NCBI GenBank assembly: GCA_947449695.1
Contig: CANFST010000030.1
Location: forward strand, 1-35,262
Direction of reading: 5' to 3'
DNA: 35,262 nucleotides
Source of the DNA: Chitinophagales bacterium
GTDB lineage: Bacteria > Bacteroidota > Bacteroidia > Chitinophagales > CAIODY01
Shown: positions 21,806 to 32,960 of the stretch, piece by piece
How the letters are laid out: every line of letters begins with the position of its first letter
Position numbering within the stretch: position 1 is the stretch's first letter
Position numbers and translations under genes: made by a program
The notes under the pieces: generated by a model
The model's database searches: none
Told to the model about the DNA's origin: nothing
What the model saw: only the letters and a program-made list of their open reading frames with translations

Positions 21806-22354
21806 CTACTTTTTTGTTTTCAATTTCGCTTTCGGCTCATATTTATATCCTATCGGTTTTCTTTTTTCCGCAGGTTCAATCGGGTTCATTAATTGCCTGA
21901 TAGCATCAAACACCACCCGGAATTGTTTGTCGTATTTGCCTTCCATTTCTTCCAATTTTTTTGCTAAATCTTTATGCGTATTTATTATTTCACGAAGTTG
22001 CACAAATGCTTTCACCACTTGTATGCTGGCTTTCACAGCCGTTGGCGATTTTAAAATGCTCGATAACATCACTGCGCCATGCTCGGTAAAAGCGTAAGGC
22101 AAATAAGGTGAGAATTTTAAAAATTGTAAATGCTCACAAGTTTCAACAATTAAATTTTTCTCTTTTTGATTAATCTGAAACATAAATTCTTTTGGGAATC
22201 GTTCCAAATTTCTTTTCACAGCTTGATTCAAAATTTTTGTATCAATGCCATAAAGTATTGCTAAATCAGTATCCAACATCACCTTTTCACCTCTCAACAA
22301 AATGATAGCTCGGTTAGCTTTTTCAATTGGAATTATGTTTAGGTTTTTGCTCAT
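21806..22354 (-). CDS. ORF6N domain-containing DNA-binding protein
   Basis: A 182-residue protein. The N-terminal two-thirds is an ORF6N domain, a phage-derived DNA-binding module: IILLRGEKVMLDTDLAILYG, VKRNLERFPKEFMFQI, then CEHLQFLKFSPYLPYAFTEH followed by GAVMLSSIL. A coiled-coil segment (LAKKLEEMEGKYDKQFRVVF) and a Lys/Pro-rich tail follow. An in-frame ATG exists at 22402, but it lies inside a perfect palindrome. I therefore take MSKNLN at 22354, which leaves both palindromes upstream. Such proteins are common on Bacteroidota chromosomes without a prophage, with unknown targets. The two palindromes make autoregulation the simplest idea. Confidence 0.85.
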   Translation of the reverse strand: MSKNLNIIPIEKANRAIILLRGEKVMLDTDLAILYGIDTKILNQAVKRNLERFPKEFMFQINQKEKNLIVETCEHLQFLKFSPYLPYAFTEHGAVMLSSILKSPTAVKASIQVVKAFVQLREIINTHKDLAKKLEEMEGKYDKQFRVVFDAIRQLMNPIEPAEKRKPIGYKYEPKAKLKTKK

Positions 22355-22379
22355 AATTTTACTTTCATTTTTTTTGTGG

Positions 22380-22404
22380 AGGTGGTCACAAATTGTGACC
22401 ACCT
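22380..22404. promoter_or_regulatory. 25-bp palindromic operator-like site, proximal
   Basis: Perfect palindrome: arm AGGTGGTCACAA, central A, arm TTGTGACCACCT. It sits 25-50 bp upstream of the ORF6N start codon, where a bound repressor would block transcription. An identical copy lies 65 bp further upstream. Confidence 0.8.
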
Positions 22405-27531: not shown

Positions 27532-29049
27532 ATGTTTTGCTTTTTCAAATTTTTAGGTTTTATTTTATTATTCCAATTACCCTTCGTTGTTTTTTCACAA
27601 GACAAAACTGTTGAGATTTTAAACTCTAACGAAATGCAGTTTGTTCGCCACCCAGAAGGCGATATGAAAAAATTAACGGGTAATGTTATTTTAAAACAAG
27701 GCGATGTGGTGATGTGGTGCGACAGTGCTTTTTTTAAAGATTGGAGCAATGGAGTTGATGCTTATGGTAATGTGAAAGTTAAACAAGGTGACAGCATTAC
27801 TTTATACTGCCGTGAGTTGAATTACTTTGGCAATGAAAAAAAACTAATCGCCAAACAAAAAGTGCGGTTAGAAAAAGCAAAAAGCACTTTGCTTTCTGAA
27901 AGAATTGATTACGATTTAAAAACGAAAACAGGTTGGTATTTAGATGGAGGTAAATTATTAAATGACAGCACTTTGCTAATTAGTAAAATTGGTTATTACC
28001 ATGCAGGTAATGGTGATGCGTATTTTAAAGAAAAAGTAAAACTCACCAATCCTCATTATTCATTAATGGCTGATTCATTTATGTATAATGTAAACACCCG
28101 AACAAATTTTTTTACTGGTGCAACACACATTACTACTGACTCAACAAAAGTGTATTGCGAAGGAGGTTATTATGCTTTATCAACTGGCGAAAGTAGATTT
28201 ATAAATCATGCTCACATCATTTCAAAAACACAAGATGTAAAAGCTGATAGAATTGATTTTAACTCAAAAACCAGTTTGGGAGCAGCATTTGGCGATGTCA
28301 ATTTTTTCGATTCGCTGCAACGAATCAGAATTTTAGCTGGTGAAGCACATTTTAATCAATACACAAATTTTTTAAAAACTTTTCAAAATCCAATTCTTCA
28401 AACACTATTAGATAAAGATACTTTGTACATCAATGCCGATACTTTAACTTCATTTGTACAAATAGATTCCATCAAAAAAATGGACACAGTAAAGCATCGT
28501 TTGTTATTGGCTTATTATCATGTACGTATGTATAGTCGGAAGTTTCAGGCGGTTTGCGATTCCACTACTTATAATTTTTCTGATTCTGCTTTTCACCTTT
28601 TTTATCAACCCATTTTATGGGTTGATAGTAATCAATTAAGCGGTGATACTATTTTTATTTATACCAAACGAAATAAAATTGAGCATTTAACCATGATGCA
28701 AAAAGCAATGATTGTTGAACGTTTGCATCCAAAATTGTTTAATCAGGTAGCTGGAAGAAATATCATTGGTTATTTTAAAGAAAATGAATTGCACGAAATG
28801 TTGGTGGAAGGAAACGCTGAATCAGTTTACTTTTCAACTGATTCTAAAAAAGCATTTACTGGTGTAAATAAAAGTAATGCTGGGCGTATGCGCTTTGAAT
28901 TTAAAGAAGGAAAAATGGATAAAATTTATTTCTACGAACAACCTGATGCAACATTTTATCCGATGCGACATCTTAATTTCAAACAATTAAATTTAAAGAA
29001 TTTTAAATGGTGCGGTGGCTTACGACCGATGTTTTCAATGTTTAAATAG
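27532..29049 (+). CDS. OstA/LptA-like exported protein
   Basis: A 505-residue exported protein: signal peptide about 1-22 (LGFILLFQLPFVVFS), then repeated OstA/LptA-type beta-jellyroll segments such as LTGNVILKQGDVVMWCDSAF, VDAYGNVKVKQGDSITLYCR, and later GWYLDGGKLLNDSTLLISKI. OstA_N domains occur in LptA and LptD, which ferry lipopolysaccharide to the outer membrane. This longer soluble form is widespread in Bacteroidota and is thought to serve envelope transport, but its exact role is not established. It overlaps the convergent kinase gene by 8 bp, so no terminator fits between them. Confidence 0.85.
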   Translation: MFCFFKFLGFILLFQLPFVVFSQDKTVEILNSNEMQFVRHPEGDMKKLTGNVILKQGDVVMWCDSAFFKDWSNGVDAYGNVKVKQGDSITLYCRELNYFGNEKKLIAKQKVRLEKAKSTLLSERIDYDLKTKTGWYLDGGKLLNDSTLLISKIGYYHAGNGDAYFKEKVKLTNPHYSLMADSFMYNVNTRTNFFTGATHITTDSTKVYCEGGYYALSTGESRFINHAHIISKTQDVKADRIDFNSKTSLGAAFGDVNFFDSLQRIRILAGEAHFNQYTNFLKTFQNPILQTLLDKDTLYINADTLTSFVQIDSIKKMDTVKHRLLLAYYHVRMYSRKFQAVCDSTTYNFSDSAFHLFYQPILWVDSNQLSGDTIFIYTKRNKIEHLTMMQKAMIVERLHPKLFNQVAGRNIIGYFKENELHEMLVEGNAESVYFSTDSKKAFTGVNKSNAGRMRFEFKEGKMDKIYFYEQPDATFYPMRHLNFKQLNLKNFKWCGGLRPMFSMFK

Positions 29050-31279
29050 TCTGTGATTTAATCACACCCACATCAAACAACATTTGAAATAGTTCTTCTT
29101 TGCTGAATGGTTTTGGCAAGAAATATTTCATACCAGCTTCTTTGCATCTTTTTCGTTCATCATCTGTAACACCTGCTGTAAAGGCTACTATAGGCATTTC
29201 CTTATGTTCACCACCTTCTCTGACTTTTTCAGCTACTTCAGTTCCCTCCATATCAGGCATTTTCACATCGCACAAAAACACATCATACTTAAATCTGGAA
29301 AGCATACTCAATGCAGCTTTGCCATTATCAACTGCTTCCACAATAGCGTTGAAATAATGTTTCTGCATCAATTTTTTTACAATCAATTGATTGAATGGAT
29401 TATCATCTGCTACTAACATGCGAAATGTTTCGTAAAAAACTTCTTGTTTTGGTGCAACTAATTTTTGTTGCTCTGCCAATTGTTGTTCGTCAATTATTAA
29501 ATAAGGAATAACGAAGGTGAAAATACTGCCGCCAGCTGGATTTGCAGTTACTACCATCGTTCCATCCTGTAACTCGACCAATTGTTTACTGATTGCTAAG
29601 CCCAAACCAGTGCCACCAAAAAACTTAGAAGTTTCTGCACTAGCTTGTTTAAATCTTTCAAAAATTCTGTCCAATCTATCATTGTCAATTCCAATTCCAG
29701 TGTCCACCACCTGAAATTGAATATTCACTTTTCCATCTAAAGTATCCAATGGTTTTACATTGATAGTTACGCCACCTTTTGCGGTAAACTTCATGGCATT
29801 ACCTGTGAGGTTGATAAGTATTTGTCCTAATCGGAATGAATCTCCTAATAGGTTTCTTGGCGTATCTTCAGCAATGTTTAAATTGATTTCAAGATTTTTT
29901 TGTTTGGCTTGTAACACAAACATTTGATGAACTTTCTTCGCTTCACGTTCAACATTAAATGGTTCACTTTTAAATTCAATTTTACCAGCTTCAATTTTGC
30001 TGAAATCTAAAATCTCATTTAAAATGTGAATTAAATTTTCAGCAGATTGTTTTATTGCTGAAACACTTGCTCGGTCTTCTTCATTTAAACTTGGTGAATC
30101 AATCAGCAAATTTGAAAAGCCTAATACAGCATTCATTGGCGTACGAATTTCATGGCTCATATTGCTCAAGAAATTCGATTTAGAAACTGATGCTTGTTCA
30201 GCTAATTCCTTCTCACGTGTGATTTGGTGAATTTGATTAGAGATTTGTAATTGTTGAATCTTACGAACGTTTTCATCATTCAACCATTTTTCCTTCATCT
30301 CCTTGTGTTCGATTGACTTTTTATAAGCCATTTCGAAATTGCCCATTTGGCTGTATATCTCCGAATACAAATGCAATATTTCAATTTCTTCTTCGTGCAA
30401 TTCGAGCTTAGCACTAATATCCATTGCATATTTTAACTGATCTAATGCTCTATCAAATTGTTTCAACTCAGCATACAATTGAGCAAACCCTTTGTAATTA
30501 AACACTCGGGCCACTTTCATGTCGTTTTCAACTGAAATGGTCATGCTTTTATGAAAACTTTCTTCAGCAGTTTTCAAATCTTTTTCTTTCAAAGAAATTA
30601 AGCCCAAATAAAGTGAAGAGCGGCAGGCATTGATTTTATCGTTGATTTCTTCTGATACTTCAGCAGCTTCAGTAAAGTATTTTTTTGCTTCTTGCAAATT
30701 ATCCATGGTGAAAAAGCCCATCCCCAGATTGTTTGCCACCAAACAAACATTCACTTTGTTTTTTACCCGACGATAATATTCTTGAGCTTTTTTTAAATAA
30801 TCAATTCCTAAACTGTAATTTTTCGTACGCAAATAAATAATACCGATATTCATGATGATAGTGTACAAAGCCCTTTCATCATCGCCTTTTTCGTAGATTT
30901 GATAGGCATCAGTATAAAAAATTAACGACTTTTCTAAATCGCCAATTTGATTAAACAGCAAGCCCAAATTATTGAGGATATTGCCTTTGAGCTTATTATT
31001 GAGCGATTTATTAGCTGATGTTAAAGCACTTGAAAAACATCGGATGGCTACTTCATGATTCCCTAAAACTGTATTACATAAGGCTTTCAGGTTAAATCCT
31101 AATGCTTCGCCCTCTGCATAACCATATTGTTTTGATTCATTTAAGATGTATTCTGATAGCTCAATTCCTACCAAAGGTTCCTTATTCATTAAAGCATGAC
31201 CTTTTTCAAATAGGGAATTGATGCGTTCTTTCACGTCAATAATTTCACTCACAGAATGCACTATTTCCTTACTATTCAT
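29042..31279 (-). CDS. Soluble TPR hybrid histidine kinase/response regulator
   Basis: A 745-residue hybrid kinase with no membrane segment or signal peptide. Residues about 20-330 form a helical TPR array of roughly seven repeats (NILNNLGLLFNQIGDLEKSL, IIMNIGIIYLRTKNYSLGID, CLVANNLGMGFFTMDNLQEA). A short coiled coil (335-365) leads to HisKA with phospho-acceptor His376 (SNMSHEIRTPMNAVLGFSN). The HATPase domain follows (Asn490/Asn494, DTGIGI, GGTGLGL), then a receiver domain with Asp671 (CDVKMPD), Asp625/626, Thr701 and Lys723. No output domain, so phosphate must pass to another protein or act through protein contacts. It is divergent from three small peptide genes, with 167 bp between starts; TPRs can bind peptides, so a sensor role for them is possible but unproven. 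Confidence 0.93.
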   Translation of the reverse strand: MNSKEIVHSVSEIIDVKERINSLFEKGHALMNKEPLVGIELSEYILNESKQYGYAEGEALGFNLKALCNTVLGNHEVAIRCFSSALTSANKSLNNKLKGNILNNLGLLFNQIGDLEKSLIFYTDAYQIYEKGDDERALYTIIMNIGIIYLRTKNYSLGIDYLKKAQEYYRRVKNKVNVCLVANNLGMGFFTMDNLQEAKKYFTEAAEVSEEINDKINACRSSLYLGLISLKEKDLKTAEESFHKSMTISVENDMKVARVFNYKGFAQLYAELKQFDRALDQLKYAMDISAKLELHEEEIEILHLYSEIYSQMGNFEMAYKKSIEHKEMKEKWLNDENVRKIQQLQISNQIHQITREKELAEQASVSKSNFLSNMSHEIRTPMNAVLGFSNLLIDSPSLNEEDRASVSAIKQSAENLIHILNEILDFSKIEAGKIEFKSEPFNVEREAKKVHQMFVLQAKQKNLEINLNIAEDTPRNLLGDSFRLGQILINLTGNAMKFTAKGGVTINVKPLDTLDGKVNIQFQVVDTGIGIDNDRLDRIFERFKQASAETSKFFGGTGLGLAISKQLVELQDGTMVVTANPAGGSIFTFVIPYLIIDEQQLAEQQKLVAPKQEVFYETFRMLVADDNPFNQLIVKKLMQKHYFNAIVEAVDNGKAALSMLSRFKYDVFLCDVKMPDMEGTEVAEKVREGGEHKEMPIVAFTAGVTDDERKRCKEAGMKYFLPKPFSKEELFQMLFDVGVIKSQTI

Positions 31280-31367: not shown

Positions 31368-31399
31368 TTGCAGTCACACTTTTTCCACACATATCTTTG
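31368..31399 (+). promoter_or_regulatory. Promoter of the small-peptide gene array
   Basis: TTG (31368-31370), 21 nt, then TATCTTTG (31392-31399), a full match to the Bacteroidota -33/-7 pattern. Initiation near 31405 gives a leader of about 42 nt before the first peptide. No comparable box precedes peptides 2 or 3, so they probably share this promoter. Confidence 0.7.
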
Positions 31400-31439: not shown

Positions 31440-31625
31440 AACTCCCATGAAAAATTCATCAATCCAATTATTGGAGTTGATTAACATCAACGCCATGTCA
31501 ACAGTAAAAGGTGGAACTGCTACATTAGTTTCTACTAGATCTGTTGCAGGAGAATGGTGGGGCGCTGGTTCTTTATAAGAACTTTCGCTTCAGTAAAACT
31601 CCCAACACCTTCTTTACTATTCACC
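31440..31625 (+). repeat. Tandem duplication, unit 1 (peptide 1 and its 3' flank)
   Basis: It runs from AACTCCCATGAAAAA through peptide 1 into its 3' flank. It is matched by 31669-31861 at offsets of 229-236 bp. The last 39 nt of the unit (31587-31625, starting GCTTCAGTAAAACTCCC) are identical in both copies although non-coding. Confidence 0.85.
31447..31578 (+). CDS. Double-glycine leader peptide with GEWWGAGSL tail, copy 1
   Basis: A 43-codon gene. The leader MKNSSIQLLELININAMSTV-KGG (Gly22-Gly23) has the short amphipathic helix and terminal GG typical of peptides cut by C39-peptidase exporters. The 20-residue remainder ends TRSVAGEWWGAGSL. No cysteine is present, so thioether rings are impossible. 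The start codon is chosen because MKN plus the leader is shared with copies 2 and 3. A GTTCTT-TAT-AAGAAC palindrome overlaps the stop codon. No exporter or modifying enzyme lies in the window. Family unrecognised; candidate bacteriocin, signalling peptide or unmodified secreted peptide. Confidence 0.8.
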   Translation: MKNSSIQLLELININAMSTVKGGTATLVSTRSVAGEWWGAGSL

Positions 31626-31668
31626 TATTTTTTTAATCAGAACATTTTTTTTAAACAAACAAAATTCA

Positions 31669-31861
31669 AACTCCCATGAAAAATTTAACATCCATCCAAT
31701 TGTTAGAGTTGATTAACATCAACGCTATGTCAACTGTAAAAGGCGGTGCAGCAGTAGTTGCTTCATCTACTCGTTCAGTTGCAGGAGAATGGTGGGGCGC
31801 TGGTTCTTTATAAGAATCTTTTGCTTCAGTAAAACTCCCAACACCTTCTTTACTATTCACC
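31669..31861 (+). repeat. Tandem duplication, unit 2 (peptide 2 and its 3' flank)
   Basis: The counterpart of 31440-31625. It differs by a handful of substitutions, a two-codon length change in the variable part of the peptide, and a few changes just after the stop. The 39-nt flank at 31823-31861 is identical to 31587-31625. Confidence 0.85.
31676..31813 (+). CDS. Double-glycine leader peptide with GEWWGAGSL tail, copy 2
   Basis: A 45-codon gene, the near-duplicate of the preceding one. The leader is MKNLTSIQLLELININAMST followed by VKGG (Gly23-Gly24). The 21-residue remainder starts AAVVASS and ends TRSVAGEWWGAGSL, identical in its last 14 residues to copy 1. Differences from copy 1 cluster at the leader start and just after GG, while SIQLLELININAMSTVKGG is unchanged. 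It is in the same transcription unit, 97 bp below copy 1, with AACTCCC immediately before the ATG in both. Function unknown, as for copy 1. Confidence 0.8.
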   Translation: MKNLTSIQLLELININAMSTVKGGAAVVASSTRSVAGEWWGAGSL

Positions 31862-31890
31862 CTATTTTAAAAAATCAAAATTATCACATC

Positions 31891-32106
31891 ATGAAAAATT
31901 CAAACACTTTTCCTACACTCGAATTCATTAGTTCACAAGCAATGGCATCTGTAAAAGGCGGTGCAACTATTCAAGAAATTAATGATGCTTTTCAAAAAGG
32001 CTACATTACCGAAGATCAACGTTCAGCCATCTTTAATGACATCACAATGGGAACCTTAGACCCTCGTTCACTTACTGGTGAATGGTGGGGTGCTGGCTCT
32101 TTGTAA
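31891..32106 (+). CDS. Double-glycine leader peptide with GEWWGAGSL tail, longer divergent copy 3
   Basis: A 71-codon gene. The leader MKNSNTFPTLEFISSQAMAS followed by VKGG keeps the pattern but few residues of copies 1 and 2. After GG comes a 33-residue charged helical insert (TIQEINDAFQKGYITEDQRS, then AIFNDITMGTL) absent from the others. It ends PRSLTGEWWGAGSL. The tail is kept through synonymous changes (GGT/GGA, GGT/GGC, GGC/GGT, TTG/TTA), which indicates selection on the protein. The frame is open upstream to 31789, but the ATG at 31891 aligns with the MKN starts of the others. The last gene before the terminator. Function unknown. Confidence 0.8.
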   Translation: MKNSNTFPTLEFISSQAMASVKGGATIQEINDAFQKGYITEDQRSAIFNDITMGTLDPRSLTGEWWGAGSL

Positions 32107-32140: not shown

Positions 32141-32173
32141 ATGCCTCTTATTGATATTATCAATAAGAGGCAT
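32141..32173 (+). terminator. Intrinsic terminator closing the peptide array
   Basis: A perfect 16-bp stem (ATGCCTCTTATTGATA / TATCAATAAGAGGCAT) around one central base, followed by TTTTTA, starting 34 nt after the stop of peptide 3. The stretch from here to the clpP stop at 32286 holds nothing else recognisable. Confidence 0.93.
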
Positions 32174-32285: not shown

Positions 32286-32960
32286 TTATTTTTTCTTCAA
32301 CAACACTTCATCAATCATTCCGTAATTTTTTGCTTCATCGGCAGTCATCCAATAATCACGGTCACTGTTTTTTTCTACCTCTTCATAAGTTTTACCCGAA
32401 TGTTGTGCAATAATGTCGTACAACTCTTTTTTCAATTTTAAAATTTCACGAGCTGTAATTTCAATATCACTAGCTTGCCCTTCAGCTCCGCCTAATGGTT
32501 GATGAATCATAATTCTGCTGTGTTTCAAAGCTGTACGTTTTTTATCAGCACCAGCACATAATAGTACTGCTGCCATTGAAGCGGCTAACCCTGTGCAAAT
32601 AGTTGCTACATCTGGGTTGATGTATTGCATCGTATCATAAATCCCCAAACCTGCGTACACTGAGCCACCTGGGCTGTTTACATAAATTTGAATATCGCGT
32701 TTTGCATCGGTTGATTCTAAAAACAACAATTGTGCTTGAATAATATTTGCCACATAATCGTTGATGCCTTCGCCCATAAAAATAATTCTGTCCATCATCA
32801 ATCGGCTGAAAACGTCCATCGTTGCTACATTTAGCGGACGTTCTTCAATGATGTAGGGTGTTAAATTAGTTACAGATTTTTTCATGTAACTATCAATAGT
32901 GTTGCCGCTCATGCCCTGGTGATGAACTGCATACTTTCTGAATTCTGATTGAATCTTCAT
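32286..32960 (-). CDS. clpP: ATP-dependent Clp protease proteolytic subunit
   Basis: A 224-residue serine peptidase that forms the tetradecameric Clp barrel. The triad is Ser128 (GLAASMA), His153 (MIHQPLGG) and Asp202 (SDRDYWMTADEA). SPGGSVYAGLGIYDTMQYI and the handle-region helices are standard. The first 30 residues are probably a propeptide or flexible extension. Partners ClpX/ClpA are not in the window; in most Bacteroidota clpX adjoins clpP, but here the downstream neighbour is the peptide array in convergent orientation. The gene is divergent from rimM with a 206-bp gap. Confidence 0.97.
   Translation of the reverse strand: MKIQSEFRKYAVHHQGMSGNTIDSYMKKSVTNLTPYIIEERPLNVATMDVFSRLMMDRIIFMGEGINDYVANIIQAQLLFLESTDAKRDIQIYVNSPGGSVYAGLGIYDTMQYINPDVATICTGLAASMAAVLLCAGADKKRTALKHSRIMIHQPLGGAEGQASDIEITAREILKLKKELYDIIAQHSGKTYEEVEKNSDRDYWMTADEAKNYGMIDEVLLKKK

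Follow-up and report, generated by a model that had tools for sequence, protein, structure and literature searches.

A 35,262-nucleotide contig of a freshwater Chitinophagales bacterium (CANFST010000030.1, assembly GCA_947449695.1; the whole stretch is hereafter the window) carries an array of three small genes encoding peptides with double-glycine (GG) leaders and a common GEWWGAGSL C-terminus; this is probably peptide signalling of an undescribed kind, not a toxin. The array is divergent from the gene of a histidine kinase with tetratricopeptide repeats (TPR), a pairing that recurs in a sister genus. That the peptides are secreted signals, the C-terminal tail of which is read by this cytosolic kinase, we regard as evenly balanced. 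Somewhat less probable is the wider proposal of a new build of Gram-negative peptide communication, in which GG pheromones would leave through a stand-alone C39 transporter, their tails would be read by soluble and rapidly diversifying TPR histidine kinases, and pheromone types would differ between sister genera. Six genomes of the family were compared: the window genome (G000), two congeners (G001 and G002), two members of the sister genus (G003 and G004), and G005.

The three genes lie on the forward strand at positions 31447-31578 (gene 1, 43 residues), 31676-31813 (gene 2, 45 residues) and 31891-32106 (gene 3, 71 residues). Every precursor starts with MKN and has a leader that ends in VKGG with hydrophobic residues at -4, -7 and -12, and all parts of the GG-leader definition (15-30 residues, GG end, hydrophobic -4/-7/-12) are present in the array. 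The leader of gene 1 is MKNSSIQLLELININAMSTVKGG, and the predicted mature peptides are TATLVSTRSVAGEWWGAGSL (20 residues) for gene 1, AAVVASSTRSVAGEWWGAGSL (21 residues) for gene 2, and a 47-residue product for gene 3 in which an insert resembling the G002 peptide precedes GEWWGAGSL. A second ATG lies upstream in the third open reading frame (ORF), at 31789, and the shared leader arises only from the ATG at 31891. A strict GG-leader pattern matched exactly three ORFs within the window, the array genes, whereas 60 dinucleotide-preserving shuffles of the window gave a mean of 0.47 matches per window (at most 2), and in none of these did WW stand close to the C-terminus. The ORFs and this pattern confirm the layout described in an earlier note on this DNA: three consecutive genes of 43, 45 and 71 codons with MKN...VKGG leaders and varied spacers. 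No Pfam, NCBIfam or PHROG family matched the array peptides above noise.

Outside the leader, the nine residues of GEWWGAGSL and the stop that follows are the only block identical across the three genes (tails at 31549-31575, 31784-31810 and 32077-32103, forward strand), and the spacers differ. The tandem copies that make up genes 1 and 2 also take in some of the flanking sequence, and gene 3 is more diverged. The compared leader codons of genes 1 and 2 show seven synonymous and no non-synonymous differences, the tails of genes 1 and 3 show four and none, and gene 1 differs from its conserved copy in G001 by five synonymous and no non-synonymous changes in the leader and by one and none in the tail. 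At the sequence level, selection seems to have preserved leader and tail but not the spacer; since the changes in leader and tail are synonymous and the spacers vary freely, the selected product seems to require the former two and not the latter. The earlier note had drawn the shared end longer, as RS(V/L)(A/T)GEWWGAGSL, and had envisaged a cut after the Arg. GEWWGAGSL stands, but the RS(V/L)(A/T) part does not, since a congener has STKAGEWWGAGSL, and the Arg, which is not conserved there, falls away as a cleavage site.

Tail-pattern and profile searches recovered true relatives in the same genus only, where the peptide genes lie next to clpP and their tails read GEWWGAGSL or GEWWGGGALKG. The congener G001 has MKNSSIQLLELININAMSTVKGGTTTTSTKAGEWWGAGSL plus a second, contig-broken copy, and G002 has a 73-residue version ending GEWWGGGALKG plus a partial copy ending WGGGAL. 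Note that these copy numbers are lower bounds, because the assemblies break inside the array (G001 contigs C33 and C54, G002 contig C485), as expected of near-identical tandem copies. The two congener bins (Umea3p1_bin-1165 and Umea1_bin-3847) presumably derive from Umea freshwater metagenomes. When 398 genomes of the order were searched with the full-length peptide profile, matches came from the window genus alone, and the tail pattern found no true relative beyond that genus in a scan of ~85,000 species and no plasmid match. The scan returned 26 stretches, in which small GG ORFs occurred only on congener contigs, the others being chance frames or other proteins; tail matches in G005, G025 and G079 were rejected as unrelated reading frames or proteins. 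The idea of a family of secreted peptides with an active tail is upheld by the GG precursors, the exporter described below and a conserved tail beside a free spacer, and homologues with conserved leader and tail do occur in related genomes, namely the congeners, but these searches lend no support to a wide distribution in Bacteroidota, which we reject. We found no description of the GEWWGxGxL family, or of a conserved divergent pair of peptide and kinase receptor, in the literature searched.

The segment AAAACTCCCAACACCTTCTTTACTATTCACC is common to the spacer between genes 1 and 2 (31579-31678) and that between genes 2 and 3 (31814-31893), and AAACTCCCATG is found at the start codon of genes 1 and 2 and of the G002 copy. 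These elements are possible translation or RNA signals, or merely mark the duplication unit.

The earlier note overlooked the best clue to function, namely a TPR histidine kinase encoded divergently from the array and, conserved in the sister genus, the same pairing of a GG peptide with a TPR kinase. The kinase gene (29042-31279, reverse strand), 167 bp upstream of the array, encodes a 745-residue hybrid protein of TPR-HisKA-HATPase-REC architecture, the proposed receptor. Its highest hydropathy over 19 residues is 1.27, compared with 2.97 and 2.85 in two control membrane proteins; because this peak lies far under those of the controls, the kinase is probably soluble, and with no transmembrane segment found it is set apart from the membrane-bound (HPK10) sensor kinases. 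The predicted structure of residues 1-359 is a TPR solenoid that leads into a long terminal helix. The solved folds closest to this model are LGN/Pins and kinesin light chain, including a complex of the latter with a tryptophan-acidic peptide, and Rap with its pheromone CSF appears at rank 50; that the nearest folds are peptide-binding TPRs favours a signalling role.

Orthologues of the kinase occupy the same clpP locus in G003 and G004, with 41-42% identity over the whole protein, and in both genomes a 73-residue GG-leader gene lies ~230 bp upstream in divergent orientation. Kinase and GG-leader gene are divergent neighbours at the clpP locus in G000, G001, G003 and G004, two of the six family genomes being too fragmented to score for the pairing. 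The sister-genus tail, with repeats DINDTVAAGKI, DINDTVAAGKI and SFIDTVAAF, is unrelated to GEWWGAGSL. The recurrence of the pairing in two genera, despite this level of kinase identity and unrelated tails, argues for a signal. After the peptide gene, the sister genus has a soluble TPR-LytS kinase and then a LytTR regulator, an order that points the same way; the regulator is absent from the window locus. Com, Agr and other peptide quorum-sensing systems employ regulators of the LytTR class. The same TPR-LytS/LytTR pair is present in G005, the contig of which ends where the peptide gene would sit. The sister-genus locus (L080:3381-9415 in G003, L081:7466-13475 in G004), with its repeat GG peptide between two soluble TPR kinases, continues with lipoprotein-like and TonB-dependent-receptor-like genes (named by eye), and the TonB-dependent-receptor-like protein could be an outer-membrane importer.

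Comparison of G003 with G004 revealed where these proteins change. The catalytic halves of both kinases are 82-100% identical per 40-residue block, whereas identity is 12-38% in the TPR half of the LytS-type kinase and 32-62% in several blocks from the TPR region of the hybrid kinase. Since third-base divergence in conserved codons is similar across both kinases, the contrast reflects constraint and not recent import. The fall of long TPR stretches in both kinases to 12-60% identity, beside conserved catalytic halves, favours a signalling role, and the pattern is as expected, from sequence comparison, of polymorphic ligand receptors. In the peptides, repeats 1 and 2 change in parallel from DINDTVAAGK to DINETVMAGK (D to E, A to M) amid many synonymous changes. 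In the window genus, the TPR is 97-98% identical between G000 and G001, the tail is identical and the spacer alone changes. A tail that is constant where the TPR is constant, and two repeats that change together in the sister genus, also support a signal.

The window genome encodes one C39-peptidase ABC transporter (C16:26369-26722), on another contig than the array and adjoined by a HlyD-type adaptor, as the earlier note had anticipated in asking for such an exporter elsewhere in the genome. Exactly one was likewise found in each of G001-G004, so that five of the six family genomes have one, and none was found in the 89%-complete assembly of G005. Nothing resembling a GG precursor occurs in the C16 exporter operon, and leader-profile searches of the six family genomes, the window genome included, turned up no further convincing GG leader. 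We infer by exclusion that the array is the cargo of the C16 exporter, and the single exporter of G000-G004, in genomes with no other convincing GG leader, favours a signalling system. At L009:8049-11835 of the window genome, a protein with a type IX secretion sorting domain (Por_Secre_tail) is encoded upstream of the sole C39 exporter gene, with no linked GG precursor.

In the mechanism that we propose, the precursor would be cut after VKGG and exported by the sole C39-peptidase ABC transporter with its HlyD-type adaptor, and the GEWWGxGxL C-terminal part would be the information-bearing element. The tail would be recognized by the TPR solenoid of the divergent hybrid kinase, either after re-uptake or within the producing cell, and the kinase phosphorelay would then alter gene expression, probably that of the peptide genes too. 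Several copies of the tail (three genes here, three repeats in one sister-genus precursor) may raise the signal dose.

The nearest parallels are ComRS/XIP and the RRNPP systems (Rap-Phr, PlcR-PapR, Rgg-SHP), which share with the array a short C-terminal peptide, an adjacent or divergent cytosolic TPR receptor and receptor diversification (PMC5131902, PMC10075063). XIP (GLDWWSL) is a double-Trp C-terminal peptide recognized by the cytosolic TPR regulator ComR (PMC5131902); the tail of the array has a double-Trp motif as well, and this precedent favours a signal. As in RRNPP pairs, a small propeptide gene adjoins the gene of a predicted cytosolic TPR receptor. The receptor here is, however, a 745-residue TPR hybrid histidine kinase and not a DNA-binding or phosphatase protein, outside the size (250-500 residues; PMC10075063) and architecture (helix-turn-helix or Rap-type) of RRNPP receptors, and the leader is of GG type rather than Sec or PptAB type, in a Gram-negative host of the Bacteroidota. 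Catalogued cases of peptide quorum sensing with cytosolic TPR receptors come from Firmicutes and their phages (PMC10075063); the array, if the proposal is true, would extend the principle to Gram-negatives with a kinase as receptor, in a freshwater family of the Bacteroidota. RtgS was dropped as a precedent of GG type, being a SHP-like pheromone that requires PptAB (PMC7018657). ComABCDE and BlpABCHR also combine a GG-leader peptide with a C39 exporter, and the sister genus adds a kinase and a LytTR regulator in the locus, but here the exporter gene lies apart and the kinases are soluble TPR proteins, not polytopic membrane sensors. Within the Bacteroidota, bacteroidetocins and the GG-motif RiPP clusters of Bacteroidales likewise have GG leaders and C39 exporters (PMC10352776), and we found no sequence family shared with them; no modification enzyme was recognized near the array among the window ORFs, no exporter is linked to it, and the kinase pairing is conserved. 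Two of those clusters had TPR genes noted nearby, for which pheromone binding was raised as a possible role (PMC10352776), so the association of peptide and TPR is not without precedent. The complex of kinesin light chain TPR with a tryptophan-acidic peptide (6f9i) offers a similar solenoid and a ligand that pairs Trp with acidic residues, as GEWW does; this protein is a eukaryotic cargo adaptor and the resemblance is a lead only. Among the numerous TPR histidine kinases of Bacteroidota, some would gain a candidate function from a signalling system of this kind, which short synthetic peptides (GEWWGAGSL) make directly testable.

Several observations weigh against a secreted signal read by the kinase. 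A cytosolic receptor would need the peptide to be re-imported over two membranes, for which the searches yielded just the generic transporters SBP_bac_5 and PTR2; the exporter, for its part, is unlinked to the array. TPR kinases are abundant in Bacteroidota, and no GG gene lies beside any of the other TPR-kinase loci examined in the order (26 + 12). The pairing claim is for this reason restricted to one family, and a general link of TPR kinases with GG genes across the order was rejected. No copy of the kinase was found in G005 or in G002, an 83%-complete assembly in which the contig breaks off within the array. Between G003 and G004, the peptides are more alike (~80%) than the TPR domains. 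The TPR model was predicted from a single sequence with moderate confidence (mean pLDDT 71), residues 255-329 being poorly resolved, and its fold matches are compatible evidence only, because TPR folds are generic and likeness to LGN and kinesin light chain is expected for many TPR proteins.

Three other explanations are possible. The strongest, which we hold unlikely, would make the peptides class II-like bacteriocins, unmodified and produced with a GG leader, the Trp-rich tail of which acts on target cells, with a TPR kinase that serves only to regulate them. Class II bacteriocins typically have GG leaders and C39 exporters, as do the bacteroidetocins of Bacteroidales (PMC10352776), and a regulated bacteriocin fits the species-variable spacers and the kinase neighbour. 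However, no immunity gene lies between the array and either flank (kinase to clpP, which follows directly), two of the mature peptides have only 20-21 residues, and the conserved part is a 9-residue C-terminus, replaced by short repeats in the sister genus, unlike a pore-former. That no immunity or modification gene was recognized in the locus favours signalling. The next explanation, a distinctly improbable one, is that the tail is the core of a ribosomally synthesized and post-translationally modified peptide (RiPP), its tryptophans crosslinked, for example, by an enzyme encoded elsewhere. An invariant WW in a short C-terminal core after a GG leader does resemble the layout of RiPP precursors, and those of Bacteroidales share GG motifs (PMC10352776), but no radical SAM, P450, ATP-grasp, LanM or similar enzyme was recognized near the array among the window ORFs (a genome-wide search was not made), RiPP precursor models in Pfam and NCBIfam gave no match, and sister peptides at the same locus have neither Trp nor Cys in the tail. 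Least probable is a purely intracellular ligand or inhibitor of the kinase with a vestigial GG motif, which would suit a kinase that is cytosolic by hydropathy and the lack of a linked dedicated importer, but sits poorly with the retained -12/-7/-4 GG signature, the exclusively synonymous leader changes among the closest copies and the C39 exporter retained in G000-G004.

The array looks like one transcription unit, because a promoter-like element precedes gene 1 and an intrinsic terminator lies 3' of gene 3. The former (TTG-N21-TATCTTTG, 31368-31399, forward strand) is conserved in the congener and follows the Bacteroidota-type -33/-7 consensus; a scan for E. coli-type promoters, the consensus of which is uninformative here, did not detect it. 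The terminator (32141-32173, forward strand) has a 15-bp stem and a U tract (z = -5.4). The clpP gene (32286-32960, reverse strand) marks the locus by synteny in both genera and stands outside the proposed system. Elsewhere in the window, the ORF at 21806-22402 (reverse strand) encodes a 198-residue protein that by eye resembles an antirepressor of ORF6N/KilA-N type and, alone amid housekeeping genes, is a possible mobile-element remnant.
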